From positions 1 through 33,295 of the forward strand of contig JAHWJP010000015.1 in the NCBI GenBank assembly GCA_019348355.1: a stretch of 33,295 bases of DNA, written 5' to 3'. The position numbers and the translations under genes are program-made. Below are positions 9,315-28,073 of the stretch, in pieces. The notes beneath the pieces are model-generated. The model did not search any database, was not told the DNA's origin, and worked only from the letters and a program-made list of their open reading frames with translations. Source of the stretch: Actinomycetota bacterium. Its GTDB lineage: Bacteria > Actinomycetota > Actinomycetes > Mycobacteriales > SCTD01. Position 1 is the first letter of the stretch, and each line of letters starts with the position of its first letter.

Positions 9315-10424
9315 TCAAACCGGTCCGGCCGCCGGAGCTGAGCGGCACCCGTCGGAGTCGAGCGTCGAGTAGCACCGGATCTCGGTGGCTTTCACCGCCG
9401 CCCACACCGGCGCTCCGACAGTGAGGTCGAGATCGGCCACCGCGGCGGCGGTGACATCGGCGAGCACGGCCGGGGCCGCCTCGATCTGCACGCGCATCGT
9501 GTCGGCGTGCTGCTCGAGACCCGCTACCCGGCCCTGCCAGGTGTTGCGGGCCGAGCCGTCCGGGCGGTGTCGGTGCAGCACGACGGCCGACGGCGGGAAG
9601 ACCGCGAACACCTCGCCCTCGCAGCTGTCGGCGGTCACCAGGACGCCCCCGCCCTCGATCGCGATCCGACCCCCTGTCGCGCGTCCGCGGTAGAGGTTCA
9701 GGCCGACCAGGCGGGCGACATAGTCCGTACGAGGAGCCCGCGCCACCTCGGCCGTCCGACCCCGCTGGACGACCCGGCCGTCCTCGATCACGACAAGGGA
9801 GTCGGCCAGCACCATGGCGTCGAGCGGGTCGTGGGTGACGAGCAGGGTGCAACCGTTGAAGTCGGCGAGGTGCCGGCGTAGCTCAGATCGCACCTCCATC
9901 TTCGTGCTGGCGTCCAGCGCGGCCAACGGCTCGTCGAGCAGCAGCAGGCGCGGGCCGGGTGCCAGCGCCCGGGCGAGCGCGACCCGCTGTGCCTGGCCCC
10001 CGGACAGCACCCCAGGTTTGGCGTCGGCCAGCGCGGCTAGGCCCATCCGCTCCAGCCACTCCCGCGCCTGCTCCCTGGCCTGCCGGCGCGGCACTCTCGC
10101 GGCGCGCAGCCCGAAGGCGACGTTGTCGACGGCGGACAGGTGGGGGAACAGCAGGTAGTCCTGGAAGACCATGCCGATCGCCCGCTCGGCAGCCGGGACG
10201 AAGACGCCGGCTCCGGGGTCGTCCAGGCAACGTCCGGCCAGCGTGATCCGTCCGCCGCGCAGCGGTACGAGGCCGGCGAGCGCCTGCAGCGCAGTGGACT
10301 TGCCCGCACCGTTCGGCCCGAGCAGCGCCAGCACCCCGCCGGGCTCGATCCCCAGGTCGACCTCGAGCGAGAAATCCTCGCGCATGACCCGCAGGTCCGC
10401 GGCCAGCCCGGGCACGCCGGTCAT
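9315..10424 (-). CDS. modC: Molybdate ABC transporter ATP-binding protein with C-terminal TOBE-like region
   Basis: Walker A GPNGAGKS, signature LSGGQAQRVALARAL, Walker B LLLLDEPLAALD; next to modB/modA. Confidence 0.87.
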   Translation of the reverse strand: MTGVPGLAADLRVMREDFSLEVDLGIEPGGVLALLGPNGAGKSTALQALAGLVPLRGGRITLAGRCLDDPGAGVFVPAAERAIGMVFQDYLLFPHLSAVDNVAFGLRAARVPRRQAREQAREWLERMGLAALADAKPGVLSGGQAQRVALARALAPGPRLLLLDEPLAALDASTKMEVRSELRRHLADFNGCTLLVTHDPLDAMVLADSLVVIEDGRVVQRGRTAEVARAPRTDYVARLVGLNLYRGRATGGRIAIEGGGVLVTADSCEGEVFAVFPPSAVVLHRHRPDGSARNTWQGRVAGLEQHADTMRVQIEAAPAVLADVTAAAVADLDLTVGAPVWAAVKATEIRCYSTLDSDGCRSAPAAGPV

Positions 10425-11317
10425 GCGGCGCTGCCTTGGAGCCACCGGTCGCGCAGGCTGACCAGCACCACGACGGAGACGGCGAGCAGCACGAGCGACA
10501 GGACGATCGCCGCGGGCGGATCGGTTTCCAGCGCGAGGTAGACCTCGATGGGCATCGTGCGGGTGACACCGGGGAAGCTGCCGGCGAAGGAGATGGTCGC
10601 GCCGAACTCGCCGAGCGCGCGGGCGAAGCACAGCACCGCGCCGGCGCTCACCCCCGGTGCGATCAGCGGCAGCGTCACCCGCCGGAAGATGAGCGAGCGC
10701 GAGGCGCCCAGCGTCGCGGCCGCATCCTCGTACCGCCTGTCTGCACCGCGCAGCGCACCCTCCACCGCGATCACGAGAAAGGGCATGGCGACGAAGGTCT
10801 CGGCAAGAATCACCGCCGGTGTCGTGAACGGAAGCGTCACGCCGAACCACGCATCGAGGTACTGCCCGAGCAGCCCTCGCCGGCCGAGCAGCAGCAGCAG
10901 CGCTACCCCGCCGACCACCGGGGGCAGCACCAGCGGCACCGTCACGAGTGCGCGAAGCAGCCGGCGCCCGCGAAACTGCGCGCGCGCCAGCACCCAGGCG
11001 AGGGGGATGCCGAGCACCATGCTCAGCGCCGTCGCCGACGTCGCGCACACCAACGACAGCCGCAGCGCCTGTCCGACCTCCGCACTCAACAACGCTTCCG
11101 GCAGGGTCGTCCACGGCGCCCGGACGACCAGAGCTACCAGCGGCAGCACCAGGAACGCCACCGCCAACGCCGCCGGGACCAGCAGCACCGGGGGCAGACC
11201 GATGCCTCGCCCGCGGGTCCGACCGCGATCAGGGGAGCTCGAAGCCGGCCTTTGCAAGGATCCGCTGCCCTTCACTCGACAGGACGTACGCGCCGAAAAC
11301 CTCTGCGCCGGCGGCAT
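10421..11317 (-). CDS. modB: Molybdate ABC transporter permease (start uncertain)
   Basis: Multi-TM permease with EAA-like segment EDAAATLGASRSLIFRRVTLPLIAPGVSAG; between modC and modA. Confidence 0.85.
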   Translation of the reverse strand: MPPAQRFSARTSCRVKGSGSLQRPASSSPDRGRTRGRGIGLPPVLLVPAALAVAFLVLPLVALVVRAPWTTLPEALLSAEVGQALRLSLVCATSATALSMVLGIPLAWVLARAQFRGRRLLRALVTVPLVLPPVVGGVALLLLLGRRGLLGQYLDAWFGVTLPFTTPAVILAETFVAMPFLVIAVEGALRGADRRYEDAAATLGASRSLIFRRVTLPLIAPGVSAGAVLCFARALGEFGATISFAGSFPGVTRTMPIEVYLALETDPPAAIVLSLVLLAVSVVVLVSLRDRWLQGSAA

Positions 11318-11990
11318 TCGGCGCCGACGTGAGCGTCGCGAGCAGGTAGTCGCTCGGGGCCTGCTCGGCCTCGGGGAAACCGATCCCCCGCACCTTGCTC
11401 CCTGCCGCTAGGACGTCGGTCCGGTAGACCAGGGCCGCGTCGACCTCGCCGAGCACCACCTTGCTCAGCGCCGCCCGCACGTCCTGCTCGAGGGTGTCGG
11501 GGGCGGCCCGGATGCCGGCTGCCGTGAAGATCGCTGCGGCAGCTGCTCCGCACGGGACCTCGGCTGCGCACAACGCGAACGTCCGGTCCGGATCGGCGAA
11601 GTCCGCCAGCCCGTCGACCCTGCCGGGATTATCTGCTGGCACGGCGATTTCGAGATGGTTGCGGGCGAAGACCTGCGGCGCCGTCGCCTCGCCCGCGTCG
11701 ATCACCGTCGCCATCGCGGCCGGGCTCGCGGCGGCGAAGACGTCGGCCGGCGCGCCGGACACGATCTGCTGGGAGAGGGCCGAGCTGGCTCCGACGTTGA
11801 CGGCCACGCTCAGTCCCGGGTTGGCCCGCTCCACCTCGTCGGCGATCTGGCGGAAGGCGTCGGTGAGGGACGCGGCGGCGAAGACGTTCACCGTGCCGCC
11901 CTGCTCGGAGGCGGTGGGTGAGCCGCAGGCTGGCACCGCCCACGCGAGGGCGATCGCCACCACCCACAGCCGTAGGGACGGCGAGGTCAT
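11229..11990 (-). CDS. modA: Molybdate-binding periplasmic lipoprotein
   Basis: Lipobox-like AVPACGSP; VNVFAAASLTDAFRQIADEVERANPGLSVAVNVGASSALSQQIVSGAPADVFAAAS. Confidence 0.9.
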   Translation of the reverse strand: MTSPSLRLWVVAIALAWAVPACGSPTASEQGGTVNVFAAASLTDAFRQIADEVERANPGLSVAVNVGASSALSQQIVSGAPADVFAAASPAAMATVIDAGEATAPQVFARNHLEIAVPADNPGRVDGLADFADPDRTFALCAAEVPCGAAAAAIFTAAGIRAAPDTLEQDVRAALSKVVLGEVDAALVYRTDVLAAGSKVRGIGFPEAEQAPSDYLLATLTSAPNAAGAEVFGAYVLSSEGQRILAKAGFELP

Positions 11991-12391
11991 GGGCGCTCGT
12001 CGAGCTCGAGAACGACGTTGGTGGCCTTGATCGAGGCGTACGCGACGACGCCCGGCTCGAGTGCGAGCTCGTCGGCGGCCTCCCGGCTCATCAGCGACAC
12101 CACCCGGAACGGGCCCGCCTGCATTTCGACCTGGGCCATCACGGTGTCGCGGGTGACCTTGGTGACGATGCCGCGCAGGCGGTTGCGCGCCGACCGTACG
12201 CCGACCGGGCCGACCGGGCTCGGATCCTCGGCGAGCGTCCGGGCGAGGCTGGCCAGCTCGGCCCCGTCGACAGCCGACCGCCCGTTACCGGCCTTGATCA
12301 GCTTCAGCCGGCCCTGGTCGGCCCACCGCCGTACCGTGTCGTCGCTGACGCCCAGGAGAAGGGCGGCCTCGCTGATCCGTAGTTGCGGCAC
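11987..12391 (-). CDS. HTH (MerR/excisionase-type) plus TOBE molybdopterin-binding regulator
   Basis: LRISEAALLLGVSDDTVRRWADQGRL and SARNRLRGIVTKVTRDTVMAQVEMQAGPFRVVSLMSREAADELALEPGVVAYASIKATNVVLE. Confidence 0.85.
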   Translation of the reverse strand: MPQLRISEAALLLGVSDDTVRRWADQGRLKLIKAGNGRSAVDGAELASLARTLAEDPSPVGPVGVRSARNRLRGIVTKVTRDTVMAQVEMQAGPFRVVSLMSREAADELALEPGVVAYASIKATNVVLELDERP

Positions 12392-12879: not shown

Positions 12880-14313
12880 TCAGCGCAGCAGCGGCGTCGT
12901 CGCGAGTTCGAGCACCGGTCCGCCGAACACGCCGAGGGCGATCACCGACGCGCCGGCCGTGACCGCGGCGAACTCCGCCCACCAGGTCCCGGCCCGGTCC
13001 TCGTCCGGCGCCCGTGCCGCCGTGCCGGTCGACGCGGCGTCGGTGCCGAACGCCGACGCGAGCCACCGCAGGTAGTAGAACAGGCTGGCCACCGTGTTGA
13101 CGGCCGCCAGCACCACCAGCCAGGCAAAGCCGCCGTCCCAGGCGGCGCCGAACACCACCACCTTGCCGACGAACACCGCCGTGGGCGGGGTCCCGACCAG
13201 GCCCAACAGGCAGATAGCGAGCGCGCCCGCGAGCGCTGGCCGGTTGCGGGCCAGCCCCCGGTAGTCGGCGAGCGTCTGCCGCCGCTCCAGGCAGGCGACG
13301 ACAGCGAACGCCCCCAGGTTGGTGACCGAGTAGGCCGCGAGGTAGAGCAGCAGACTGGGCATCGCGAGATCCGCCCGGCCCGCGACAGCGACAGCCATGA
13401 GCAGGTAGCCAGCCTGGCTGACCGTCGACCAGCCGAGCAGTCGGCGGGGGCTGTCCTGGAAGAACGCGGCGAGGTTGCCCAGCGTCATCGTCAGACCGGC
13501 GAGGATCGCCACGAGCAGCGGCCAGTCGACGACGGCGGTCGGCACCGCGTCGAGCACGCGGTACGCCGCGACGAGCCCGCCCACCTTGGGCACGGTGGTG
13601 GTGAAGGCTGCGGCGGGCGTACGCGCTCCCTGCGCCACGTCGGGCACCCAGAAGTGCCCAGGCACCCCGCCCACCTTGAACATCAGCCCGGCCAGCAGGC
13701 ACACGACACCGAGCGCCACCGGTGCGCGGGGCGCGTCCGGCAGCCGCTCGGCCAGCTCCGCGTAGGTTGTCGCGCCGGCCACGCCGTAGAGCAGCGTGAC
13801 GCCGAGCAGCATGGCGATGCCGAGGAAGGCACCGAGCAGGTAGAGCTTGAGCGCGGCCTCGGTGCCGGAGGGGTCGCGGGCGAAGCCGGCCAGCGCGTAG
13901 AGCGGCAGGCTCGCCAGCAGGTAGGCGACGGCCAGCACCATCAGGTCGCTCGCCCCGGCCAGGGCGAGGGCGCCGAGTGCGCCGAGCATCAGCAGCACCG
14001 AGAACTCGGTCTCCCGCTTGTCGCCCTGAACCTGCGGAATGGCCAGGCCCAGGGTGAGCAGCGTCGCCGGCAACACGATCAGGCGGGCCGCGGTGGTGAC
14101 GCCGTCGACGGCCCAGATTCCGTCGTAGACGACCTCGCCGGGATCGCCCGCGGCCGTGATGCTGGCGGCGAGGGCCGCGAGCAGCGTCAGTGCCGTGAGG
14201 GCGCGGGTGACCCACTGGCTGCGCCTCGGCACGAAGGAGCCGACGAGCAGGATGCTGACGGCGCCCAACAGCAGCAGCGCCTCGGGCGCGAGAGCGACCG
14301 GGTTCTCGTTCAC
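12880..14313 (-). CDS. nuoN: NADH-quinone oxidoreductase subunit N
   Basis: Proton_antipo_M-type: FKVGGVPGHFWVPDVAQGARTPAAAFTTTVPKVGG, RRLLGWSTVSQAGYLLMAV. Confidence 0.92.
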   Translation of the reverse strand: MNENPVALAPEALLLLGAVSILLVGSFVPRRSQWVTRALTALTLLAALAASITAAGDPGEVVYDGIWAVDGVTTAARLIVLPATLLTLGLAIPQVQGDKRETEFSVLLMLGALGALALAGASDLMVLAVAYLLASLPLYALAGFARDPSGTEAALKLYLLGAFLGIAMLLGVTLLYGVAGATTYAELAERLPDAPRAPVALGVVCLLAGLMFKVGGVPGHFWVPDVAQGARTPAAAFTTTVPKVGGLVAAYRVLDAVPTAVVDWPLLVAILAGLTMTLGNLAAFFQDSPRRLLGWSTVSQAGYLLMAVAVAGRADLAMPSLLLYLAAYSVTNLGAFAVVACLERRQTLADYRGLARNRPALAGALAICLLGLVGTPPTAVFVGKVVVFGAAWDGGFAWLVVLAAVNTVASLFYYLRWLASAFGTDAASTGTAARAPDEDRAGTWWAEFAAVTAGASVIALGVFGGPVLELATTPLLR

Positions 14314-15875
14314 GAGACCAGCTCGGTCACCGTCCGCGCCGCCGGCTCGATCAGGTCCAGCAGCGGCCGCGGGACGAGCCCGAGCACGAGGGCGAGCAGC
14401 AGCAGCGGCGCGACCGCGGCGAGCTCCCGCGGGTTCACGTCGACGCGCAACTTCGGCCGTAGCCCGGTCTTGACCGCCTTGCCGCCGGCGCGAACCGTCG
14501 GGACGCCGCCGATGCGCTCGGTGAGCTCGCCGGCCGGCCCGGCGAAGACCCGTTGCAGCGCGGCAAGAAACAGCGCCGCGGTGAGCAGGATGCCGACGAT
14601 GCCGAGCGCGGCCGCGACGGGCACCGTCGCCAGCGACCCGGCGAAGATCTGGAACTCCGCGAGAAAGCCGGTGAAGCCAGGAATGCCGAGTGAGGCGAAC
14701 GCCCCGACCGCGAAAAGGGCGGCGAAGCGCGGCATCGGACCGGCCAGCCCGCCGTAGCGGCGCATGTCGTAGCTGTGCCCGCGCTCGTACAGCACGCCGG
14801 CCAGCAGGAACAGCGCGGCCGTGATCAGACCGTGGCTGACCATCTGCATCATCGCGCCGGTGACGGCGACGGCCCGGGCCTGTTCGGCGTCACCGCCGGA
14901 CAGCACGCCTGCCGCGCCGAGACCGAGCAGCACGTAACCCATGTGGTTGACCGAGGTGTAGGCGATCATCCGCTTGAGGTCGTCCTGCGCGAGGGCGACG
15001 AGCGCGCCGTACAGGATCGACACGACGCCGACCACGACGAAGACGAGGGCGTAGCGCCGCCACGCCTCGGGCAGGATCGGCATGGCGATGCGAACGAAGC
15101 CGTACGTGCCCATCTTCAACAGGACCGCGGCCAGCACGGCCGAGCCGGCCGCGGGGGCATCGGTGTGCGCCGGCGGCAGCCAGGTGTGGAAGGGCACCGT
15201 CGGGGTCTTGACGGCGAGGCCGATCGACAGGGCAAGCAGCACGAAGCCCGCAGCGACCGGCTTGCTTTCGAGCGGCGGGTTGCGCGCGAGCTCGACCATG
15301 TCGAAGGTGCCGGCCGCGACGTAGAGCCCGAGGAAGGCGACGAGCATCGCGAGCGAGCCGAGGAAGGTGTAGAGGAAGAACTGCAGCGCCGCCCGGGCCG
15401 CGCCCGCGTGACCCCAGCCGGCGATGACGAAGTACATCCCGACGATGGACAGGTCGAAGAAGACGAAGAAGACCAGCAGGTCGAGCGAGGCGAACACGCC
15501 GAGCGACATGCTGAGCAGGAACAGGAACAGCGCGGAGTACTCCCGCGGTCGCTTGTCCTCCGCGAGGGAGTAGATCCCGGCGGCGAGGAACACCCCGGCG
15601 GTCATCAGCAGCAGCGGCAGACTGAGTCCGTCCACACCCACGTGATAGCTGCTGCCGACACCCGGGATCCACGGCACCCGCTGCTCGTAGTCGAGCCCGT
15701 CCGTGACGCCCGCTCCGAGGTCGGCGGCCAGCCACATGCCGGTGAGCAGGGCGAGTTCGACCGCAGCGACGGTGACCCATACGGCCAGGGCCGCGCGGCC
15801 GGGCAGCACCGGGACGGCGAGCAGCACCAGCGCGGCCAGCAGGGGCAGGAACACGACGACGGAGAGCACGCTCAC
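14310..15875 (-). CDS. nuoM: NADH-quinone oxidoreductase subunit M
   Basis: GTG start (VSVLSVVVFLPLL); YHVGVDGLSLPLLLMT, AVKTPTVPFHTWLPPAHTDAPAAGSAVLAAVLLKMGTYGF, DDLKRMIAYTSVNHMGYVLLG. Confidence 0.93.
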   Translation of the reverse strand: MSVLSVVVFLPLLAALVLLAVPVLPGRAALAVWVTVAAVELALLTGMWLAADLGAGVTDGLDYEQRVPWIPGVGSSYHVGVDGLSLPLLLMTAGVFLAAGIYSLAEDKRPREYSALFLFLLSMSLGVFASLDLLVFFVFFDLSIVGMYFVIAGWGHAGAARAALQFFLYTFLGSLAMLVAFLGLYVAAGTFDMVELARNPPLESKPVAAGFVLLALSIGLAVKTPTVPFHTWLPPAHTDAPAAGSAVLAAVLLKMGTYGFVRIAMPILPEAWRRYALVFVVVGVVSILYGALVALAQDDLKRMIAYTSVNHMGYVLLGLGAAGVLSGGDAEQARAVAVTGAMMQMVSHGLITAALFLLAGVLYERGHSYDMRRYGGLAGPMPRFAALFAVGAFASLGIPGFTGFLAEFQIFAGSLATVPVAAALGIVGILLTAALFLAALQRVFAGPAGELTERIGGVPTVRAGGKAVKTGLRPKLRVDVNPRELAAVAPLLLLALVLGLVPRPLLDLIEPAARTVTELVS

Positions 15876-17767
15876 CTCACCAGCAGCAGGAGCAGGACGG
15901 CGCCGGCGAGCAGTGCGGCTGCCTGGGCGTAGTAGGTGTGCAGCTGTCCGGTCTGCGGGCGGCGAGCGAACCGGCCCAGCGACCGGCTGCCGGCGGTGAC
16001 GGCGCGGACGGCCCCGTCGATGCCGCCGAGGTCGAAGCGGGCGGTGCGCCGGGCGAGGATCACGGTGCCGACGGTCGTCGTGCGCACTCCGCTGTCGACG
16101 ACGCCGCTGTCGGCGCGCGCCAAGCCGGTGGCCGTGCGCACGACGCCACGGGCGAGACCACGGACGGCCGGGTCGAGCACGCCGTCGTCGAAGCGGGCCA
16201 GCAGGGTCGCAAGGCGCCCCACCGGACGGACGACCAGCAGGGCGACCAGCGCCTCCAGGTCCAGCCACCGCTGCGCGATCTGCGGGACAGGGAACGGCGC
16301 GAGCGGGCGTCTGCGGGCGAGCGCGAGACTCCCGGCGGCGACGAGGCCGGACACGGCCAGTTCGACCGGCCCGGGCGAGGGAGCCTCGCCGAGCGCCGAG
16401 CGCAGCGGCTCGGCCACCGCGGGTAGCCCCAGGGCGCCGAGCCCCGCAGCCCCCACGGCGAGGACCACGAGCGCGCCGCGCTCGGGCAGCGGCAGTCGCA
16501 GGACCGGACGTTGGGCTGCCGTTGGAGCCGGCCGCAGCACCAGGAACAGCGCCTTGCCGGCGTAGAGGGCGGACAGCGCCGCGCCGAGCAGCCCGGCCGC
16601 GGCCAGGCCGGTTGAGTCGACGCCGGCGAGCACCTCGTCCTTGGTGACCCACAGCGACAGCGGGGGCAGGCCGGCCAGCGCGAGTGTCCCGACGACAAAG
16701 CACCAACCGGCGACCGGGGTGGCCCGCAGCGCGCCACCGAGCTCGCGCAGGTCCTTGGTGCCGTACGCCGTCAACCAGGCGCCGGCGACCAGGAACAGCA
16801 GCGACTTGACGGCGGCGTGCGCCACCAGGTGCATGGTCCCGGCGGCAACCGCGCCGCTGCCCGCGGCGAGCACGACGAAGCCGAGCTGCGCGGCGGTCGA
16901 GGCGGCGAGCAGCTGCTTGAGGTCGGTCTGGGCGAGCGCGACGAGCCCCATTGCGACGGCGGTCAGCGCGCCCGCCCAGGCCACCACCGGGCCGGCCCAG
17001 CCGCTCGCGGCGAGCAGCGGCTCGACCCGCAGCAGCAAGTAACCGCCCATGGCGACCATGGCGGCGCTGTGCAGCAGCGCGCTCACCGGGCTCGGACCCT
17101 CCATCGCCCTGGACAGCCAGAAGCTGAACGGCAGCTGGGCGGCCTTGCCGAGCGCGGCGACGACGAGACCGGCGGCCGCGACGTCGAGCCAGACCCCGTC
17201 GGCCATCGGCAGGCCGGCCAGCTCGAACGAGCCGGTGCCGGCGAGGGCGGCGCCGGCCGCGACGTAGAGCCCTAGGTCGGCGGCGCGGGTGACGAGGAAG
17301 GCGGTACGGCCGCCGTCGACCCGGGCGGGCTCGCGCCAGGACAGGCCGATCAGCGCGTACGACGTCGCGCCCATCAGCTCCCAGGCCAGCAGCAGCGTCA
17401 CAAGGTTGGTCGCGGTGACGGTCACCACGACCGCAGCCTCGAACAGCAGCAGGAAGCCGAAGAAGCGCACCCGGTGCTGGCGCACGCCCGTGGCGGAGAA
17501 GACCAGCACGGCCAGCGCGACCGCCGCGACCGCGGGCAGGACGACGGCCGCGAGCGCGTCGACGGACAGCGCGAGGTCGCCGCCCGCGACGAAGGGGGCG
17601 CGTGCCGAAGGACGCAGCAGTGCGGCGGCGACAGCGAGGATGAGGACGACGGAGCCGGTCCCCACGCCGACCGCGGCGGCCGACCGCTCGACGCGGCGGC
17701 CGACCACCAGCAGGGCCGTGCCGGCGACGGCGGGCGCCGCGGCGAGGGCGACGAGCAACGCACTCAT
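15872..17767 (-). CDS. nuoL: NADH-quinone oxidoreductase subunit L
   Basis: MSALLVALAAAPAVAG...; GKAAQLPFSFWLSRAMEGPSPVSALLHSAAMVAMGGYLLLR, QTDLKQLLAASTAAQLGF, HLVAHAAVKSLLFLVAG. Confidence 0.92.
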   Translation of the reverse strand: MSALLVALAAAPAVAGTALLVVGRRVERSAAAVGVGTGSVVLILAVAAALLRPSARAPFVAGGDLALSVDALAAVVLPAVAAVALAVLVFSATGVRQHRVRFFGFLLLFEAAVVVTVTATNLVTLLLAWELMGATSYALIGLSWREPARVDGGRTAFLVTRAADLGLYVAAGAALAGTGSFELAGLPMADGVWLDVAAAGLVVAALGKAAQLPFSFWLSRAMEGPSPVSALLHSAAMVAMGGYLLLRVEPLLAASGWAGPVVAWAGALTAVAMGLVALAQTDLKQLLAASTAAQLGFVVLAAGSGAVAAGTMHLVAHAAVKSLLFLVAGAWLTAYGTKDLRELGGALRATPVAGWCFVVGTLALAGLPPLSLWVTKDEVLAGVDSTGLAAAGLLGAALSALYAGKALFLVLRPAPTAAQRPVLRLPLPERGALVVLAVGAAGLGALGLPAVAEPLRSALGEAPSPGPVELAVSGLVAAGSLALARRRPLAPFPVPQIAQRWLDLEALVALLVVRPVGRLATLLARFDDGVLDPAVRGLARGVVRTATGLARADSGVVDSGVRTTTVGTVILARRTARFDLGGIDGAVRAVTAGSRSLGRFARRPQTGQLHTYYAQAAALLAGAVLLLLLVR

Positions 17768-18069
17768 CCGGACAGGTCCGCAGCCTGGTCGGTGAGATCG
17801 GCGTCGCGCGCGCGGAAGATGGCGGTGACGACGGCAAAGCCCATCGCCATCTCGACCGTCATGGCGGTGATGACCACGAGCACGAGGACCTGGCCGTCGG
17901 GGCGGCTCGGGGAGACGTAGGCCCAGAAGGCGGCCCCGGCGACGAGCACCCCGTTGAGCATCAGCTCCAGGCCCATCATCACCATCACGATCGACTGCTG
18001 TGACAGCGCGCCGTAGATCCCGATGCAGAACAGCGCGCTGGCGAGGACGAGGAGCAGCTCGAGGCTCAT
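17764..18069 (-). CDS. nuoK: NADH-quinone oxidoreductase subunit K
   Basis: MSLELLLVLASALFCIGIYGALSQQSIVMVMMGLELMLNGVLVAG. Confidence 0.93.
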   Translation of the reverse strand: MSLELLLVLASALFCIGIYGALSQQSIVMVMMGLELMLNGVLVAGAAFWAYVSPSRPDGQVLVLVVITAMTVEMAMGFAVVTAIFRARDADLTDQAADLSG

Positions 18070-18626
18070 CGGCCCAGACCACCTGGTACGGGGTCGCTGG
18101 CCGGCTGGTCGAGGTCGTCGCCGAAGCGGTCGTACCGCCCGCGCGGCGCGGCCAGCACCAGGCTGCCGACGATGGTCGCGAACAGCACCGGGCTGATCGT
18201 GAGCATCACGAGCATCTTCGAGCCCATGATGCCCTCGCCCAGCTGCAGGGTGATGTCGGCGGGAGCGACGCCTTCCCGTTCGGGCCACGGCACCAGCAGC
18301 GCGCCCGCTGCGAGCACGACGAAGCTGCCGACGGCAACGGTCATCGCACCGGCCTTGTTGTGGTACATCGACATGGGCATCAGCCCACCGGGATTCATCA
18401 TGTACATGATCATGAAGACGGCCATGATGGACATCTCCATCACCATCATCAGCACGGTGATCAGACCGAGGTAGTCCAGGTCGAGCAGCAGCATCACCGC
18501 GCCGACCGCGACGAAGGACACGGCCAGGGCGAAGGTGGCCCGGGCCATGCTGCTGACCCGGAACACCGCGAAACCCGAGGCCACCGCCGTGAGGGCGAGC
18601 AGCCAGAACAGCGCGTCGACGACCAC
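18066..18626 (-). CDS. nuoJ: NADH-quinone oxidoreductase subunit J
   Basis: MVVDALFWLLALTAVASGFAVFRVSSMARATFALAVSFVAVGAVMLLLDLDYLGLITVLMMVMEMSIMAVFMIMYMM. Confidence 0.88.
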   Translation of the reverse strand: MVVDALFWLLALTAVASGFAVFRVSSMARATFALAVSFVAVGAVMLLLDLDYLGLITVLMMVMEMSIMAVFMIMYMMNPGGLMPMSMYHNKAGAMTVAVGSFVVLAAGALLVPWPEREGVAPADITLQLGEGIMGSKMLVMLTISPVLFATIVGSLVLAAPRGRYDRFGDDLDQPASDPVPGGLGR

Positions 18627-19547
18627 TCACGACCTCCCGAGCACGAGCAGGCTGACCACCAGGATCTGCAGCAGGACGAGCGGGATGCCGACGACCCAGG
18701 CCAGTTCGGCGAAGCGCTCGGGGCGCAGCAGCGCGAACCGGCGCCGGCAGGCCACCAGCAGGCCGAGCACGAGGACCGTCTTGACGACGCTCCACAGCAC
18801 CGCCGGCAGCAAAGGTCCCTCGCCGCCACCGAGGAACAGCGGCACTGCGAAGGCCGCGCCGGCGACCAGTAGCGCATATCGGCCGAGCAGCACGAGCAGC
18901 CGGTCGACACCGGAGCTCTCGGCGAGCACGCCGCCGCCGAGGTCGGCGCCGATCGGGGCGGCGAACGGCCCCCACAGCGAGAAGGCCAGCACGCAGACGC
19001 AGAAGACGACGAAGGCGACCGGCATCGTGACGACGAACCACAGGCCGGCCTGCTCGGCCTGCACGTCGGCGAGCCGCAGGCTTCCGGCGCCCAGAGCCGG
19101 GGAGATGAGGGCGAACATCAGCAGCAGCTCGTAGGACAGCGCCTGCGCCAGGAAGCGGTGAGCTCCGACCAGCGGCCAGGCGCTGTTCGCGCCCCAGCCG
19201 GTGATCCACACCGCCGCCCACAGCAGCACGTCCATGGCGTTGAACCACACGACGCCGACCGCGGAGTCGAGCAGCGTCCAGTCGCCCCACGGCACGACCG
19301 CGACCATCAGCGCCGCCACGACCAGCAGCGACACCCCGCCGGTGCGCCACAGCAGCGGGTCGTTCGCCACGGTCGTACGCCGCTGCTGCACCACGAGGCG
19401 GGCCGCCTCCTGCCACGGCACCCGAAGCGCGCCGGCCAGGCCGCGCCCGGCCGCAAGCGCGGCATCGAAGGTGGCGGCGGCCACGCAGAGCGCAAGCAGC
19501 AGGCCGAGCGCCAGTGGGGCGGCCCACGCCGGCGCCTGTTCAACCAT
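18627..19547 (-). CDS. nuoH: NADH-quinone oxidoreductase subunit H (divergent)
   Basis: Multi-TM; LAQALSYELLLMFALISPALGAGSL, GVLAESSGVDRLLVLLGRYALLVAGAAFAVPLFLGG; syntenic position. Confidence 0.82.
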   Translation of the reverse strand: MVEQAPAWAAPLALGLLLALCVAAATFDAALAAGRGLAGALRVPWQEAARLVVQQRRTTVANDPLLWRTGGVSLLVVAALMVAVVPWGDWTLLDSAVGVVWFNAMDVLLWAAVWITGWGANSAWPLVGAHRFLAQALSYELLLMFALISPALGAGSLRLADVQAEQAGLWFVVTMPVAFVVFCVCVLAFSLWGPFAAPIGADLGGGVLAESSGVDRLLVLLGRYALLVAGAAFAVPLFLGGGEGPLLPAVLWSVVKTVLVLGLLVACRRRFALLRPERFAELAWVVGIPLVLLQILVVSLLVLGRS

Positions 19548-20748
19548 GCTGTGCTACCGCAGGTTTCGCGATGGTGTCGGCGACGTCCCGGTCTGCGAGG
19601 TCAGGGTCCAGGCTGGCGATGATCAGGCGGGCTCCGGCCAATTCCTGCCCGATCACCAGCCGGGGGATCGCCGCGATCAGCGCCTGCGAGGCCGTCCGGC
19701 CGCCGACCTGCTCCCCGCGCGTACCGCCGCGGCCGGCAGCCCCGTTCAGCGCCGCCCATGCCTCGGTCAGCCACTGCAGCAGGCGGTCGTGGACGTCGCC
19801 GTCGGCGCGCTGTGCCGGGCCGCTGATCCCGAGCTGCACCGCCCGCTCGGCTGGCAGCGCCCCCAGGTCACGCAGGCCCCAGCGCAGCGACCGGGACCGG
19901 CGCACCTTCGCGCCGAGCCGCGCGACCTGCGCTGCCGTGCCCGGTGTTGACGCGTCGTCGAGCACCGAGTCGCGAAGGGTCCGGGCGGTGTACGCGGCGG
20001 CGGACCAGCCCGCCAGCTGGAGCAAGCGCGCGGCACTGTCGAGGTGCGCAGCTGCCCGCCGGCCCGGCGGTCCCGCCGCGTCGTCCCACCACGAGCTCGC
20101 GGTCGATGCGGCCCAGCCGTAGGCGTACGCCTCCTGCACGACGTCGCCCTGCAGCGTCACGTCGACGACCAGGCCGGCCGGCCACGCCGGCAGGAACGGG
20201 CCGAGCTGCAGATGAAGAATGTCCAACCGCAGGCCGTCCCGGTCCGGGGCACGGTCGGCCATCGCCAGACCACCGGGCAGGTCCATGTCCATGTCCATGT
20301 CCCCGTGGCCCATCTCGGCATGGTCCATGTCGCCGGGTGGGTCGTCCATGTTCATGTCCCCGTGGTCCATCTCAGCAGCACCCGTGTCACCGCCGGCGTC
20401 CGGTGGCGTCCGGCCGGCCGCATCAAGCCGCTGCGCCGGAACGTCGCGCAGCGCGGCAACGGCGCGTTCAAGGGCGTCCGGCACGTCTTCACCACCCCGG
20501 AGAGAAATCCGGCTACGGGGCCCCGCGACGGCGTCCCAGGTGAGCTCGACCGCCGCAGCCAACTCGGTCGAGGGCGCACCACAGACAGCGAGCACGTCCG
20601 CGTCGGCCGGCCCGTCAGCACGCGGCCAGCCCCGTGCGCGGGCGTGCCGCTCGGCGGCGAGGCGCGCCGGCGTACCGCCTGGGCATTCCACCAGCAGCAG
20701 ATGCGGACGGCCGGCCGCAAAGCGCACCAGCCGCTCGGTCAGCGCCAC
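19540..20748 (-). CDS. Putative NuoB-like/NuoD-like fusion protein with Met/His/Asp-rich linker
   Basis: N-terminus DADVLAVCGAPSTELAAAVELTWDAVAGPRSRISLRG resembles the NuoB Rossmann segment; linker MDHGDMNMDDPPGDMDHAEMGHGDMDMDMD; C-terminus LRLDILHLQLGPFLPAWPAGLVVDVTLQGDVVQEA resembles the NuoD N-terminal pattern; lies between nuoH and nuoA. Confidence 0.6.
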   Translation of the reverse strand: MALTERLVRFAAGRPHLLLVECPGGTPARLAAERHARARGWPRADGPADADVLAVCGAPSTELAAAVELTWDAVAGPRSRISLRGGEDVPDALERAVAALRDVPAQRLDAAGRTPPDAGGDTGAAEMDHGDMNMDDPPGDMDHAEMGHGDMDMDMDLPGGLAMADRAPDRDGLRLDILHLQLGPFLPAWPAGLVVDVTLQGDVVQEAYAYGWAASTASSWWDDAAGPPGRRAAAHLDSAARLLQLAGWSAAAYTARTLRDSVLDDASTPGTAAQVARLGAKVRRSRSLRWGLRDLGALPAERAVQLGISGPAQRADGDVHDRLLQWLTEAWAALNGAAGRGGTRGEQVGGRTASQALIAAIPRLVIGQELAGARLIIASLDPDLADRDVADTIAKPAVAQHG

Positions 20749-20766
20749 CTGCTCATGCCCATCGGC

Positions 20767-21117
20767 TCATGCCCATCTAAAGGCACCTTCGCGCCAGGCG
20801 TAGACGACGGCGAGCACCAGCACAACCAGGAAGACGAACATCTCGACGACCGCGGCGGCGCCGACCTGGGCGACGACGAGCGTCCATGGATACATGAACA
20901 GCATCTCGATGTCGAAGGCGAGGAACACCATCGTCATCGAGTACCAGCGGGCGTGAAAGCGCGAGACGGCGTATTCCTTCGGTGCAACCCCGCCGTTGTA
21001 CGGCAGCGAGGTGAGCGGCGTACGCGCCAGTCCGGCGCTCAGGTGGGCGGCGTACAGGCCGAGCACCACGACGACAACGGCGAGCAGGAGGGCGAGCGCT
21101 CCTGAGTACGACTCCAT
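20767..21117 (-). CDS. nuoA: NADH-quinone oxidoreductase subunit A
   Basis: SLPYNGGVAPKEYAVSRFHARWYSMTMVFLAFDIEMLFMYPW is a NuoA signature. Confidence 0.92.
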   Translation of the reverse strand: MESYSGALALLLAVVVVVLGLYAAHLSAGLARTPLTSLPYNGGVAPKEYAVSRFHARWYSMTMVFLAFDIEMLFMYPWTLVVAQVGAAAVVEMFVFLVVLVLAVVYAWREGAFRWA

Positions 21118-21181
21118 GACCCTCCTTGCGTCGTGGGAAGCCTAACCTCGGTAGGGCGCTCGGGGTGCTGGCTTGTATGGT

Positions 21182-21196
21182 TACTCCCAGGGAGTA
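21182..21196. promoter_or_regulatory. Operator-like palindrome TACTCCC-A-GGGAGTA
   Basis: Perfect 7-bp inverted repeat upstream of the CopCD region. Confidence 0.6.
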
Positions 21197-21219
21197 CCAA
21201 CAGGCAAGGAGCGCCACCT

Positions 21220-21710
21220 TTGAGCACCCGCGGTGCGTCGGCCGGAGCGGCCTCGGGACCGAGCAGGCTACTGGTAGCCCTGGTCTCCGTGTTCGGGGTG
21301 CTTGCGGCCGTTGCCGCCGTAACGTTCTTCGCGCAGGGTCGATGCGCGACTTCGCCGTCAGTCCTGACAGGGCCGACACGGGCGTGGCGACGACCGCGCG
21401 AGGGCTCGCGCGAAGCACCGACGGTGGACGCACTTTTCGGCCTGTGGACGGCGCACCGGGCCTTGTCGTGCTGGCCTGGGCAAAACAGGATGCGCTGTAC
21501 GGCGTGGCGCCGGGCGGCGCCGTGTACTACACCGCGGACGGCGGGACCTCGTGGCAGCGTCGCGGGACCGTCGCTGGCGACCCTGAAGCACTCACGCTCG
21601 ACGTCCGCGATGGCAAGCAGGTGCTGTACGTCGCGGCCACCGATCGTGGCATCCTCGGCAGCGCCGACGGTGGGATGAGCTTCACGACGCGCTACCAGGA
21701 GTGGACGTGA
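21220..21710 (+). pseudogene. Membrane-anchored BNR/YCF48-like repeat protein with frameshift
   Basis: N-terminus MSTRGASAGAASGPSRLLVALVSVFGVLAAVAAVTFFAQG in one frame; MRDFAVSPDRADTGVATTARGLARSTDGGRTF...YYTADGGTSWQRRG...GILGSADGGMSF in another; shift near 21340. Confidence 0.6.
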
Positions 21711-23704
21711 TCGCTGGTCGGCGCCCGGCGGGTGCGCTCTGGCTGGTACGGCTGCTGGTCTTGATGCTCGTGCCGGTCGTGTCGTTGCTGGTGAGTTCAG
21801 CTCCCGCTCAGGCTCATCCGGCGCTGGTGACCAGCTCACCGGGTGCTGGTTACGCCGTGACGAGCGCGCCGCGGGAGATCGTCCTGACGTTCAACGAGCC
21901 GGTGAGCTTGCCTGACCGTCCACTGACCGTCCGGGACGCGGACGGCGTGCAACAGACGCTGCGGGTGGTCCTCGACGCGGACGGCGCAACCCTGCGCGGT
22001 GTCCCGGCAGCGAAGCTTGCGATCGGGGCATACGAGGTGGGCTATCGTGTCATCGGCCGCGACGGGGACCTCATCGCCGACACGTTCACCTTCGGCGTCG
22101 CCACCCCGGTAGGCGCGGTGTCGGGCGGTAACGGCAGTTCCGGTGGTGTCGGGAACCCGGAGCAGGTGCAAGGCCTGACGACCGTGCTCCGCGGCCTGCT
22201 GTTCGTCGGGTTGGCGCTCGCGCTCGGCGGGGCCTACCTGGCGTGGCGCGTCGACGAAGCTACCGGGGGTCTGCCTGGAGCGCGACCACTGCTACGAACC
22301 GGCTCGCTGTTGGCTCTGCTCGGGGTCATCGGTCTGTTGGCCGGGCTCGGATCGCTCCCCGAGATCCTCGACCGGGTGGCGGCACCGGGTGTCGCGCGGC
22401 TGCTCACCGCCGAGGCGCTGCTGCTCTGCCTTGCTGCTCTGGCCGCACGACGCCCGTGCCGCGGCGCGCTGGCGGCAGCCTTCCTACTGTGCGTGGTGTT
22501 GCTGGAGGCTCTTCGCGCGCACCCCGGGGAGGCTGACGGGGTCGCCGGGGCCGGTTTGACCGTGGTGCATCTGCTGGCCGGCGCCCTGTGGTTGGGGGGG
22601 CTGGTCCACACGCTCCGGCTCACGGCCGGATGGCGGACCAGCAAGCCTCGGGCGGTGCGCGTCGCCGTCGAGACCTACGCACGCAACGCTTTCGTGCTGT
22701 TCCTTCTCGTAGCCGTGACCGGCACCATCAGCGCCGTGACCCTGCTGCCGTCACTCGCTGACTGGACCGGCACGACGTACGGCCGGACCCTGCTGGTCAA
22801 GCTCGCCCTGTTCGCGCTCGTGCTGGTCGTTGCGCTGCTCGTCCGCACTCGGATGCGTCGCGTTCACCGGCCGGTCGGCCTTCCCGCGCCTCACGAATTG
22901 GCGGTCCCAGCCGCCACCGTGCCCGCCCACGAACCTCGACAGTGGTCTCGGCCGGCCGGGGTGGAGGCGGCACTGTTGGCAGCCGTCGTGCTCGCCGCGG
23001 CGGCGGTCACCTCGGTGACACCGACCAGACTGGTCCCGGTCTCGTCCCTGCTCACCGCCCCGATCGGACCGACGCTGCGCGTCGCCGAGCGGGTCAGGCA
23101 GGTCAGCGTGTCGATCGTTGCGTCGCAGGGTCGGCTGGAGGTACGCGCCGACGCCCCCGACGACGGGGAGCCGTTGACGATCGACCTGACCGGCCAGGTC
23201 CGCCTTGCTGGCGGCGTCGAGCGCGGCCTCGACCTGACCTCGTGCGGTGAGTCCTGTTGGACCGGTCCGGTCGAGTGGGCCACCGGCGTCAACGCGGTGA
23301 GCCTGGACGTGGACGCGCAGCGGTGGGAGGCCGGCCGGGTCAGCATCGGTGTCTCCTGGCCGGCTGTGCCCACCACCGGGTTGCTGGCCCGGGTGCAGAG
23401 CGCGATGGGCACCCGGTCGGCGATCGACACCGTCGAGACGGTCACCTCCGGATTCGGGATTGTCCTGCCGTCCAGCTCGCGCCGTACCGGGCAGGAGTTC
23501 CTGGAGTCCCAGCCGTGGACCGAGGGGGGCGCGACCGACGCGGTACTGCTGGAGGAGGCCGGACAGCGGACGCTGCTGTTCGCGCTGCCCGCGCTCGGCT
23601 ACCACTTCGCGATGCGCCTGGACTCCCAGGACCGCGTGATGTCGGAACGGATCGTCACCCCGAACCATCTGTTGACCAGGGACTACGGGTATCCGCCGGC
23701 GTGA
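21701..23704 (+). CDS. CopC/CopD (YcnJ-like) copper resistance/import fusion protein
   Basis: CopC part HPALVTSSPGAGYAVTSAPREIVLTFNEPVSLP...GAYEVGYRVIGRDGDLIADTFTFGV; then multi-TM CopD part GLTVVHLLAGALWLGGLVHTLRL. Confidence 0.88.
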   Translation: MDVIAGRRPAGALWLVRLLVLMLVPVVSLLVSSAPAQAHPALVTSSPGAGYAVTSAPREIVLTFNEPVSLPDRPLTVRDADGVQQTLRVVLDADGATLRGVPAAKLAIGAYEVGYRVIGRDGDLIADTFTFGVATPVGAVSGGNGSSGGVGNPEQVQGLTTVLRGLLFVGLALALGGAYLAWRVDEATGGLPGARPLLRTGSLLALLGVIGLLAGLGSLPEILDRVAAPGVARLLTAEALLLCLAALAARRPCRGALAAAFLLCVVLLEALRAHPGEADGVAGAGLTVVHLLAGALWLGGLVHTLRLTAGWRTSKPRAVRVAVETYARNAFVLFLLVAVTGTISAVTLLPSLADWTGTTYGRTLLVKLALFALVLVVALLVRTRMRRVHRPVGLPAPHELAVPAATVPAHEPRQWSRPAGVEAALLAAVVLAAAAVTSVTPTRLVPVSSLLTAPIGPTLRVAERVRQVSVSIVASQGRLEVRADAPDDGEPLTIDLTGQVRLAGGVERGLDLTSCGESCWTGPVEWATGVNAVSLDVDAQRWEAGRVSIGVSWPAVPTTGLLARVQSAMGTRSAIDTVETVTSGFGIVLPSSSRRTGQEFLESQPWTEGGATDAVLLEEAGQRTLLFALPALGYHFAMRLDSQDRVMSERIVTPNHLLTRDYGYPPA

Positions 23705-23804: not shown

Positions 23805-24152
23805 GTGACGACGAGGGTGCAGCGCCGGACAGCGGAACCTCGCCCGAGCGCACCGGCCGACAAAACAGGCTGCGGCGACACCGGCGAGATGATGCCGGCC
23901 GACAAGCGCGATGAGGCGCTGAAGCGGTTGGCGCGCGCATCCGGGCAGGTCGCCGGGATCAGCCGGATGGTGGACGAGGGACGGCACTGCACGGAAGTGC
24001 TGCAACAGATCGCGGCCGTGCAGAAGGCGCTGGACGGGGTCGGCAACATCGTGCTCCGCAACTACCTGGAGCGCTGCGTGACGACCGCGATCGAAGGTGG
24101 CGACCCGCTGATCTACGACGAGCTCATGCGGGTCTTCGCTCGATACCGCTGA
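23805..24152 (+). CDS. CsoR/RcnR/CstR-family metal- or sulfur-responsive repressor
   Basis: KRDEALKRLARASGQVAGISRMVDEGRHCTEVLQQIAAVQKALDGVGNIVLRNYLERCVTTAIEGGDPLIYDELMRVF. Confidence 0.9.
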   Translation: MTTRVQRRTAEPRPSAPADKTGCGDTGEMMPADKRDEALKRLARASGQVAGISRMVDEGRHCTEVLQQIAAVQKALDGVGNIVLRNYLERCVTTAIEGGDPLIYDELMRVFARYR

Positions 24153-26100: not shown

Positions 26101-26313
26101 ATGACTCGAACCACCACCGCCGTCGTGGGAGCCAGCGGGCTCGCATTGGCGGCGTTGTTCACGTACAGCACGGCAACGGCGGCGCTCGCCGACCCGGACC
26201 GGGCGCCTCGCTCCGATCAGGTGCCGGACATGGACCGGATGCACGAGCTGATGACCGACGGTAATTCCGGGATGGACCGGATGCACGAGTTGATGACCGA
26301 GGGGCCGCGCTGA
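26101..26313 (+). CDS. Small secreted Met/His/Glu-rich repeat peptide
   Basis: Signal-like MTRTTTAVVGASGLALAALFTYSTATAALA followed by MDRMHELMTDG and MDRMHELMTEG; GGAGG upstream. Confidence 0.65.
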   Translation: MTRTTTAVVGASGLALAALFTYSTATAALADPDRAPRSDQVPDMDRMHELMTDGNSGMDRMHELMTEGPR

Positions 26314-26375: not shown

Positions 26376-28073
26376 GTGGATGTGCTCGTCGTGGGCGCCG
26401 GGCAGGCTGGGCTGGGCGTCGGGTTCTGGCTGTCCCGGCGCACCGACCTGTCCTACCTGCTGGTCGACGCCGCGCCGCAGCTGGGGCAGAGCTGGCTCGA
26501 TCGCTGGGACAGCCTGGCCCTGTTCACCCCTCGTCGCTTCAGTGCGCTTCCTGGTCGGCGGTTCCCGAGGGGCGCGAGCCCGTACCCGAGCAAGGACGAG
26601 ACGGCGGCCTACCTCACCGATTACGCACGGGAGCACGAGCTGCCGGTACGGCTCGGAGCCCGGGTCGAACGCCTCACCCGCGAGGGTGCGCGGTTTCTGG
26701 CCACCACCAGGCGCGGAGCGGTTCGCGCCCGGCACGTCGTCATCGCGGCCGGGCCGTTTCACAGCCCGCATGTCCCGGCCGCGGCGGCGGGGCTGGACCC
26801 GACGGTGCAGCAGCTGCACTCCGCGCAGTACCGGCGGCCCGCGGATGTGATGGGCCGAGACGTGCTGGTGGTCGGCGGCGGGAACAGCGCCGCGCAGCTG
26901 GCTGTCGAGCTCGCCGCCACCCACCGGGTGAGCGTCGCAGCCCCGAGCGGCATGTGGTTCCTGCCGGCCAGGATCCTCGGGATCAGCCTGTACTGGTGGA
27001 TCTTCGTCACCGGCGTGCTGAACGGCGCCAGCGGCACCCCGGTCTCCCGGCTCGTACGCAAGCGCGGCGACGGCATCATCGGCCGCGACCTGCAACGCCT
27101 GGTCGCTGACGGGACGGTCCGCCTGCTGACCGAACGCGTCGTCAGCGCGACGGGCAAGACGGTGACGCTCGGCGACGGCAGCACCGAGTCACCCGACAGC
27201 GTCCTGTGGTGCACCGGCTTCCAGCCGAACTACCCGTGGCTCGACGTGGCCGGAGCCGTCGACGACGACGGACGGCCGGTGCAGGACGGCGGACGGTCCA
27301 CGGTGCCGGGCCTGCACTGGATCGGCCTTCCGTGGCAGAGCCGGCTGAACTCCGCGATCCTCGACGGTGTCGATCGCGACGCGCAAGCGCTGGTCGCCCG
27401 TCTGGACGACTCCGGCAACCTGCCGGGAAGCCGTAAGGTGCGGGCCTACTTCGACCGGCACGCCCCACGCTACGACCGGCAGATGTCGGGGTGCGAGCGC
27501 CTGTTGCTCGGCGCGCACCGGGACTGGGCGGTCGGACAGGTCCGCGGGCAGGTGTTGGAGATCGGTGTCGGCACCGGCTTGAACCTGCCGCACTACCCGA
27601 CCGACGTGACGGTGACCGGTGTCGATGTGTCCGAGTCGATGCTTGCCCACGCGCGCGCCCGTCAGGGAGTACGGGCTCGCAGCATCTTGCTGGCCGGCGA
27701 TGTGCAGCGGCTGGACCTGCCTGACAACGCCTTTGACGATGCGCTGTCGACGTACACGTTCTGCAGCATTCCCGACCCGGAACAGGCTGCCCGCGAAGCG
27801 TTCCGGCTGGTCCGCCCCGGCGGGCGTCTCGTCCTGGTCGAGCACGGACCCGCCGCGCGGTCCTGGGTGGCTGCCGGACAACGCCTGCTCGACCCGATCT
27901 GCGTGCGCCTGCAAGGCGAGCATCTGCGTCGCGACCCGGTGCCCTTCCTGCGCCGAGCCGGCTGGCAGGTCGAGACCGTCCAACGCCGGGGCCGGGCCGG
28001 GCTCGTTCACCGGGTCGTCGCCCGTAAACCCGCGGATCAGGAACACCACCGAACAGCAGGAGATCACAGATGA
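26376..28073 (+). CDS. FAD-dependent oxidoreductase (CzcO/flavin monooxygenase-like) fused to SAM methyltransferase
   Basis: VLVVGAGQAGLGVGFWL, VLVVGGGNSAAQLAVELA, WCTGFQPNYPWL; then VRAYFDRHAPRYDRQMSGCE...VLEIGVGTGLNLPHYP...GVDVSESMLAHARAR...AREAFRLVRPGGRLVLVEHG. Confidence 0.85.
   Translation: MDVLVVGAGQAGLGVGFWLSRRTDLSYLLVDAAPQLGQSWLDRWDSLALFTPRRFSALPGRRFPRGASPYPSKDETAAYLTDYAREHELPVRLGARVERLTREGARFLATTRRGAVRARHVVIAAGPFHSPHVPAAAAGLDPTVQQLHSAQYRRPADVMGRDVLVVGGGNSAAQLAVELAATHRVSVAAPSGMWFLPARILGISLYWWIFVTGVLNGASGTPVSRLVRKRGDGIIGRDLQRLVADGTVRLLTERVVSATGKTVTLGDGSTESPDSVLWCTGFQPNYPWLDVAGAVDDDGRPVQDGGRSTVPGLHWIGLPWQSRLNSAILDGVDRDAQALVARLDDSGNLPGSRKVRAYFDRHAPRYDRQMSGCERLLLGAHRDWAVGQVRGQVLEIGVGTGLNLPHYPTDVTVTGVDVSESMLAHARARQGVRARSILLAGDVQRLDLPDNAFDDALSTYTFCSIPDPEQAAREAFRLVRPGGRLVLVEHGPAARSWVAAGQRLLDPICVRLQGEHLRRDPVPFLRRAGWQVETVQRRGRAGLVHRVVARKPADQEHHRTAGDHR

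Follow-up and report, generated by a model that had tools for sequence, protein, structure and literature searches.

The complex I superfamily so far comprises redox pumps, Mrp antiporters and CO2-hydrating forms. Besides these, partial nuo operons have been described in Salinispora, named 'NDH-1 partial 2' (Penn and Jensen, 2012; PMC3314556), and, as nuoA-hypothetical-HJKLMN, in Kocuria flava S43 (PMC6002675) and in Streptomyces SM17/SM18 (PMC6676996), and in the published accounts of these loci they are interpreted as a marine or osmotic adaptation. An operon with the gene set and order given in these accounts lies in a stretch of 33,295 nucleotides of an Actinomycetota bacterium (contig JAHWJP010000015.1, positions 1 to 33,295; hereafter the window), where eight genes, nuoA-[BD]-H-J-K-L-M-N, occupy positions 12880-21117 of the minus strand with ends that overlap or abut. 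This operon, here called the module, can be assumed with a probability of about 0.6 to encode a redox-free complex derived from complex I, which would serve copper resistance by a proton-driven movement of Cu(I) similar to that of an Mrp antiporter. That the encoded complex is non-redox and has a role related to copper is highly probable, and silver resistance is probably served as well. In the parts of the three papers that deal with the operon, the hypothetical gene is not identified as NuoB/NuoD, and neither a methionine ladder nor operators nor a link to copper are reported. A paper linking the operon to copper was not found in the open-access literature, a search that did not cover subscription journals, and the tie of the operon to copper is new here.

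Similar to respiratory complex I, the module has homologous A, H, J, K, L, M, and N subunits, harbors the folds of NuoB and NuoD in its BD protein and keeps most of the antiporter Lys and Glu residues. Unlike respiratory complex I, its operon contains neither C, E, F, G, and I nor the N2 cysteines and the quinone residues, and it has a methionine ladder. The 11-subunit complex I-like enzyme, which has no E, F, and G, differs as well, since functional B, C, D, and I are absent from the module operon. The Mrp antiporter is likewise a non-redox ion-translocating relative, whereas the module has NuoA, NuoH, BD, and three separate antiporter subunits and no MrpE/F/G. In analogy to Mrp, we infer a cation/H+ exchange driven by the proton motive force (pmf). 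With the copper exporters CopA (P1B ATPase) and CusCFBA the module shares the association with copper and Met/His metal-binding elements, including the HMBD in a sister clade. However, it has a different fold without ATPase or RND domain, and its energy would come from the proton gradient by way of subunits of the complex I type.

Pfam and NCBIfam assign the seven membrane subunits A, H, J, K, L, M, and N to complex I families (Table 1), and for L, M, and N the NuoL, NuoM, and NuoN models outscore the Mrp and hydrogenase-4 models. A single open reading frame (ORF) of 402 amino acids, BD, fills the interval between A and H in place of all peripheral subunits, exactly as the initial annotation had described the operon, and genes for B, C, E, F, G, and I were not found adjacent to it. 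The conserved-cluster survey envisaged in that annotation found the same gene order in ~26 of 396 genomes of the class, 29 of which contain BD (a few as weak matches), and BD is present in 111 of the 112 loci that were fetched. Because both the eight-gene order and BD recur in this way, the operon is conserved and is neither chance nor decay. A decayed or pseudogene nuo operon was also ruled out by the conservation of order and residues over ~80 loci.

The BD protein consists of a degenerate NuoB (residues ~1-110), a Met/His linker and a degenerate NuoD (~165-385). With NuoB it aligns in hhalign at 94% (E 1.1e-7), and in the N-terminal 110 residues SPADADVLxVCG...QxPxPR stands against SPRQADLMIVAG...QMPEPK of NuoB. 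Searches with the family profile in other genomes also catch frames matching exactly this NuoB-like segment. The match to the 49-kDa/NuoD family in Pfam is below threshold (E 0.0013), and hhalign in local mode gives a weak signal for NuoD (4.7%). Therefore, evidence for the NuoD descent comes from the fold search and from the sister clades. For the full-length protein, the AlphaFold2 model (pLDDT 82.8, pTM 0.81) matches 49-kDa subunits of complex I from the PDB in Foldseek (E from 6.3e-6, probability 1.00), and the top 50 hits are exclusively 49-kDa complex I subunits. The BD of the sister-clade locus L182 carries Complex1_49kDa (E 1.4e-13) and the heavy-metal domain HMBD (E 9.5e-15) in one chain, and that of L186 matches canonical NuoB (1e-7) and NuoD (3e-6) by blastp. 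These versions, which stem from other classes within the phylum, settle that BD is by descent a degenerate NuoB-NuoD fusion.

In the alignment to NuoB the N2 ligands (CC, VC, GCP) are absent from BD. The only cysteines of the BD in the window are C22 and C56, and the Cys columns that are partly conserved in the family (34/40, 30/40, and 24/40) are single and located away from the N2 positions. The quinone segment GPQHPSTHG of NuoD, aligned by eye, reads GPxLPxWPxG in BD with G183, P184, and W189 invariant. Neither the YLH quinone motif nor the two CxxC NiFe ligand pairs of the Mbh, Ech, and Hyf type occur in the BD sequence. The initial annotation had seen no recognisable redox arm here, which is right for the cofactor sites but not for the arm as such, since it survives as a degenerate NuoB/NuoD stub. 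The proposed cofactor-poor ion-translocating complex fits these data, as no redox cofactor site is left while the majority of the proton-channel residues remain. The linker between both halves is rich in Met, His, and Asp, and relatives carry (MDHSGM)n or (HEGMDHG)n at this place, some of them in long runs. In the sister clade f59 (L182, L186, L188, and L189) the linker holds one or two HMBD motifs, YTCPMHPEV...GxCPxCGM, which can be regarded as a natural swap between putative metal-binding elements.

Methionine is a ligand of Cu(I) and Ag(I), and it is enriched in a distinct set of the membrane subunits, which were compared in a joint alignment of 75 module and 21 canonical copies. Relative to the 21 canonical operons, NuoJ has 9.5% Met instead of 2.3%, NuoK 8.6 instead of 5.2, and NuoA 4.5 instead of 2.7, whereas Met is scarcer than in the canonical subunits in L (1.6 against 3.7) and also in M, N, and H, by which a genome-wide Met bias is ruled out. 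NuoJ contains the motif MM..EM..M...M...M, typically as ILMMVMEMAVMAVYMVMFMGMNPALMPMSMVH, in 76 of 76 module copies and in 10 of 10 divergent copies, but in none of the 21 canonical ones. The AlphaFold2 model of NuoJ is poor (pLDDT 68) and was used for helix limits only (helix 51-76). The canonical ECG loop of NuoA is replaced by xSG together with a His-rich HAxSRxHxRWY loop, and its FDxEMxFMYPW segment has two additional Met. NuoK retains both channel Glu and has added Met (VMxMMGxELM, aMtvEMAMG), and NuoH has lost the charged quinone-site loop GETNRAPFDLPE in the joint alignment. Conservation in the antiporter subunits was read from an alignment of 68 sequences. NuoL is intact with invariant E130, K208, H233, H317, K321, and K376. 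NuoM has Asp141 for the Glu of transmembrane helix (TM) 5 in 68/68 sequences, with K223, K254, and E407 invariant, and NuoN has Leu132 for the TM5 Glu in 66/67, with the TM12 Lys K384 invariant and K213 present in 59/67. The residues of the proton path therein are largely retained.

Standard nuoB-G/I genes do not stand beside the module. In the host genome (2.97 Mb, 88% complete), of which the window is contig C227, the canonical nuoA-N operon is complete and lies on a separate contig, C145 (A, B, C, D, E, F, G, H, and I by Pfam, the rest by blast). A match to NuoD is absent in 11 of 20 other hosts tested, the NuoD-free ones being Kocuria, Arthrobacter, Brachybacterium, Agrococcus, Subtercola, Quadrisphaera, and a metagenome-assembled genome of the Micrococcales. 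Within the class, 25 of the 26 genomes with the module have a canonical NuoD and one has none. Because hosts without any NuoD carry the module, a borrowed canonical redox arm is unnecessary for it, which we regard as its INDEPENDENCE from complex I, and docking onto a canonical redox arm as a general rule is ruled out. The host genome also encodes a second NuoD-like/49-kDa protein outside of both operons (L058:177-1289, G000 contig C39; E 2.6e-55), perhaps the large subunit of a hydrogenase or of an 11-subunit-type enzyme.

An unbiased clustering of all neighbor genes was done around 79 dereplicated loci, with near-identical loci merged at 90% NuoM identity so that related loci remain, and with the genes of high-GC loci called by a simple script. 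The most frequent neighbor families are DUF305 (24 loci), heavy-metal P-type ATPases (21), multicopper oxidases (16), CsoR (12), and HMA/CopZ (12), followed at 10 loci by a Cys-rich four-helix family tied with a generic ABC ATPase. All six P-type ATPases that were tested score above the copper-ATPase cut-off of TIGR01511. Profiles of copper families match within 10 kb in 39 of 67 module loci vs. none of 20 canonical nuo loci, and the divergent sister clades have copper islands independently at 11 of 16 loci. Moreover, the perfect inverted repeat TACTCCCAGGGAGTA in the nuoA promoter region is the sole site of the TAC-N9-GTA type in the 33-kb window. It is a variant of TACCCC...GGGGTA, which relatives show at the corresponding place. 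TACCC-N5-GGGTA occurs at most 300 bp upstream of nuoA in 9 of 67 loci vs. 0.18 expected, and when spacings of 0-12 were scanned, 9 of the 10 hits had spacing 5. Sites with this spacing match the published CsoR operator form TAC-X9-GTA (PMC3902906). With a slightly looser pattern, 53 sites were found in 1.69 Mb of module loci vs. one in 0.40 Mb of control loci; a promoter scan found nothing. We report the operon as a putative member of a copper regulon with candidate CsoR operators. The initial annotation had guessed at coupling to another partner; the data point to copper handling, which was not proposed there.

When 85,488 species genomes were searched with NuoH, 544 relatives were obtained, the best 80 of which are nearly all from actinomycetes, plus Lysobacter spongiicola and L. 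maris. The hosts include many soil, marine, and plasmid-bearing actinobacteria and are widespread beyond the sea. The module is present in 17 plasmid records, among them those of Mycobacterium, Rhodococcus, Pseudonocardia, Gordonia, Arthrobacter, and Curtobacterium, and copper-loaded plasmids of several genera carry it. Kocuria marina SO9-6, which comes from a copper mine, carries the operon as well. In the NuoM tree the module and the divergent clades are split from canonical NuoM with a support of 100/100, and the Salinispora (L143) and Kocuria (L105) loci fall within the module family. Divergent relatives of A, BD, and H are found in three genomes of the order of Lysobacter (L192 in G953, L193 in G803, and L191 in G975), which suggests that the family may reach into the Pseudomonadota beyond a recent transfer to Lysobacter. 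One genome (G389) has two diverged copies of the whole module, L051 and L052, ~0.9 Mb apart.

Transport, metal, direction, and mechanism are what we infer from these sequences. The BD cap at the cytoplasmic side would gather Cu(I) via its linker and would pass it to a Met-lined path in J, with contributions of A, K, and H. Proton flow via L, M, and perhaps N would be coupled through conserved acidic residues of K and A and would power the movement of Cu(I) through the membrane, with the outward direction as the most likely one. Such a complex would act in the manner of an Mrp cation/H+ antiporter in which Cu(I) replaces Na+. The Na+ path of Mrp has been placed at the C-terminal portion of MrpA, which is ND6-like, and at MrpC, which is ND4L-like (PMC9568556). 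These are the counterparts of J and K, and therefore the path lies in the same region as the Met enrichment. Whether the module can be named a complex-I-sized, pmf-driven Cu(I) pump and thus a further functional kind in the superfamily, with the dead redox arm as copper-collecting cap and NuoJ as Met-lined path, is about evenly balanced.

Several observations weigh against a proton-driven Cu(I) translocator. There is no copper family within 10 kb in 28 of 67 loci, including several probable Streptomyces and Salinispora (the operator is present in three of these 28), some members (L042, L045, L050) have only a short His/Met linker or none, and NuoN has lost the TM5 Glu. Furthermore, the copper families tested were picked for their frequency near the module, and the control set comprises 20 loci only. 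A complex that serves osmotic or marine adaptation by Na+/H+ exchange or proton pumping, with copper neighbors that merely share mobile islands, is the reading published for Salinispora, Kocuria, and Streptomyces (PMC3314556, PMC6002675, PMC6676996), and it agrees with the kinship to Mrp-like subunits and with the Salinispora locus L143, which has no copper genes within 10 kb. Where these papers treat the function, however, they deduce it solely on the basis of annotation and habitat. It is not evident what the Met ladder and the heavy-metal linkers would do in Na+ transport. Copper islands are found again in deeply branching clades, CsoR-type operators are present at module loci, and carriers are widespread outside the sea, also on plasmids. 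One of them, S. albidoflavus SM254, comes from copper-rich mine fluid, as noted in the account of the Streptomyces strains (PMC6676996). We therefore consider this adaptation quite improbable as the role of the module.

If the metal is copper, the module might also import it, or deliver Cu(I) to multicopper oxidases and cupredoxins of the envelope. Such a delivery would explain the association with multicopper oxidase, DUF305, CopC-CopD, and CcdA, but the islands are of the detoxification type with CopA exporters, CsoR, and CopZ. CsoR is a repressor that releases on copper excess, and control by it suits export better, so that import or delivery is unlikely and export the likelier direction. 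Copper could further act as a redox cofactor, with electrons shuttled by Met/His sites of BD and J among Cu(I)/Cu(II), an external acceptor, and the pump. Met-only sites stabilize Cu(I) and disfavor redox cycling, and sites for an electron donor or acceptor were not recognized, which makes this very doubtful despite the metal-binding sequences in BD and J and the co-located multicopper oxidases. Hardly to be expected is also an alternative respiratory complex, in which the module would join with canonical peripheral subunits when Fe-S clusters are damaged under copper stress. The NuoD of 25 out of 26 class genomes and a BD stub that should sit at the B/D docking position would allow for it; against it, NuoD is absent from 11 of the 20 other hosts, B and D are replaced by BD rather than recruited, and NuoH no longer has its quinone-site loop. 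A proton-driven Cu(I) translocator remains our preferred reading.

The window carries part of a copper island next to nuoA (Table 1). The F510_1955/BNR family recurs beside the module in 11 of 67 loci. An own CopA ATPase or multicopper oxidase of the window was not found within 10 kb of the operon with the 10-kb family profiles. At 26125-26313 (plus strand) a short secreted-looking peptide with a DRMHELMTxG repeat bears Met and His and is without a Pfam family; it is possibly a further copper-binding peptide of the island. A single ORF of 563 amino acids at 26382-28073 (plus strand) looks like a flavin monooxygenase joined to a class I SAM methyltransferase, either as an unusual fusion or by an assembly join. 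Directly downstream of nuoN, at 9315-12391 (minus strand), are modC, modB, and modA, as judged by sequence, and a regulator of the MerR-HTH/TOBE molybdate-binding type. These molybdate genes were not observed as a recurrent neighbor in relatives.

Table 1. Features of the module and its copper-related neighborhood in the window.
Feature	Positions	Strand	Evidence or remark
NuoN-like antiporter subunit	12880-14313	-	TIGR01770 E 4.8e-93
NuoM-like antiporter subunit	14310-15875	-	TIGR01972 477.6 bits, curated complex I cut-off 263.8
NuoL-like antiporter subunit	15872-17767	-	TIGR01974 E 2e-86
NuoK-like subunit	17764-18069	-	Pfam PF00420 E 8.3e-16
NuoJ-like subunit	18066-18626	-	Pfam PF00499 E 2.3e-9
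Methionine ladder, NuoJ helix 3 and the loop after it, residues 60-89	18360-18449	-	motif
NuoH-like subunit	18627-19547	-	Pfam PF00146 E 3.7e-41
BD, 402 aa, degenerate NuoB and NuoD domains with Met/His linker	19540-20748	-	hhalign, AlphaFold2, Foldseek
BD Met/His/Asp linker MDHGDMNMDDPPGDMDHAEMGHGDMDMDM, putative metal-binding	20284-20370	-	sequence; linkers of relatives
NuoA-like subunit	20767-21117	-	Pfam PF00507 E 1e-24
F510_1955/BNR-repeat protein, divergent from nuoA	21126-21710	+	BNR match; start codon uncertain
TACTCCCAGGGAGTA, perfect inverted repeat of TAC-N9-GTA type, candidate CsoR operator	21182-21196	.	65-79 bp upstream of nuoA
CopC-CopD fusion, copper-handling	21701-23704	+	Pfam CopC E 9.7e-18, CopD E 9e-12
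CsoR/RicR-type metal-sensitive repressor	23805-24152	+	Pfam PF02583 E 3.5e-25; NCBIfam RicR E 1e-16, below curated cut-off

How the redox arm is linked to ion movement in complex I is still debated, and a relative in which the membrane arm and the docking shapes of B and D are retained while redox chemistry is missing separates these two problems. The Met ladder marks a testable ion path in the J/K/A region, which is disputed in models of both Mrp and complex I. If the copper role is true, the module would be an unrecognized copper resistance system that is spread on plasmids among actinobacteria, including environmental mycobacteria, and is also present in Lysobacter, and it would correct the literature in which these genes are filed as a marine adaptation.

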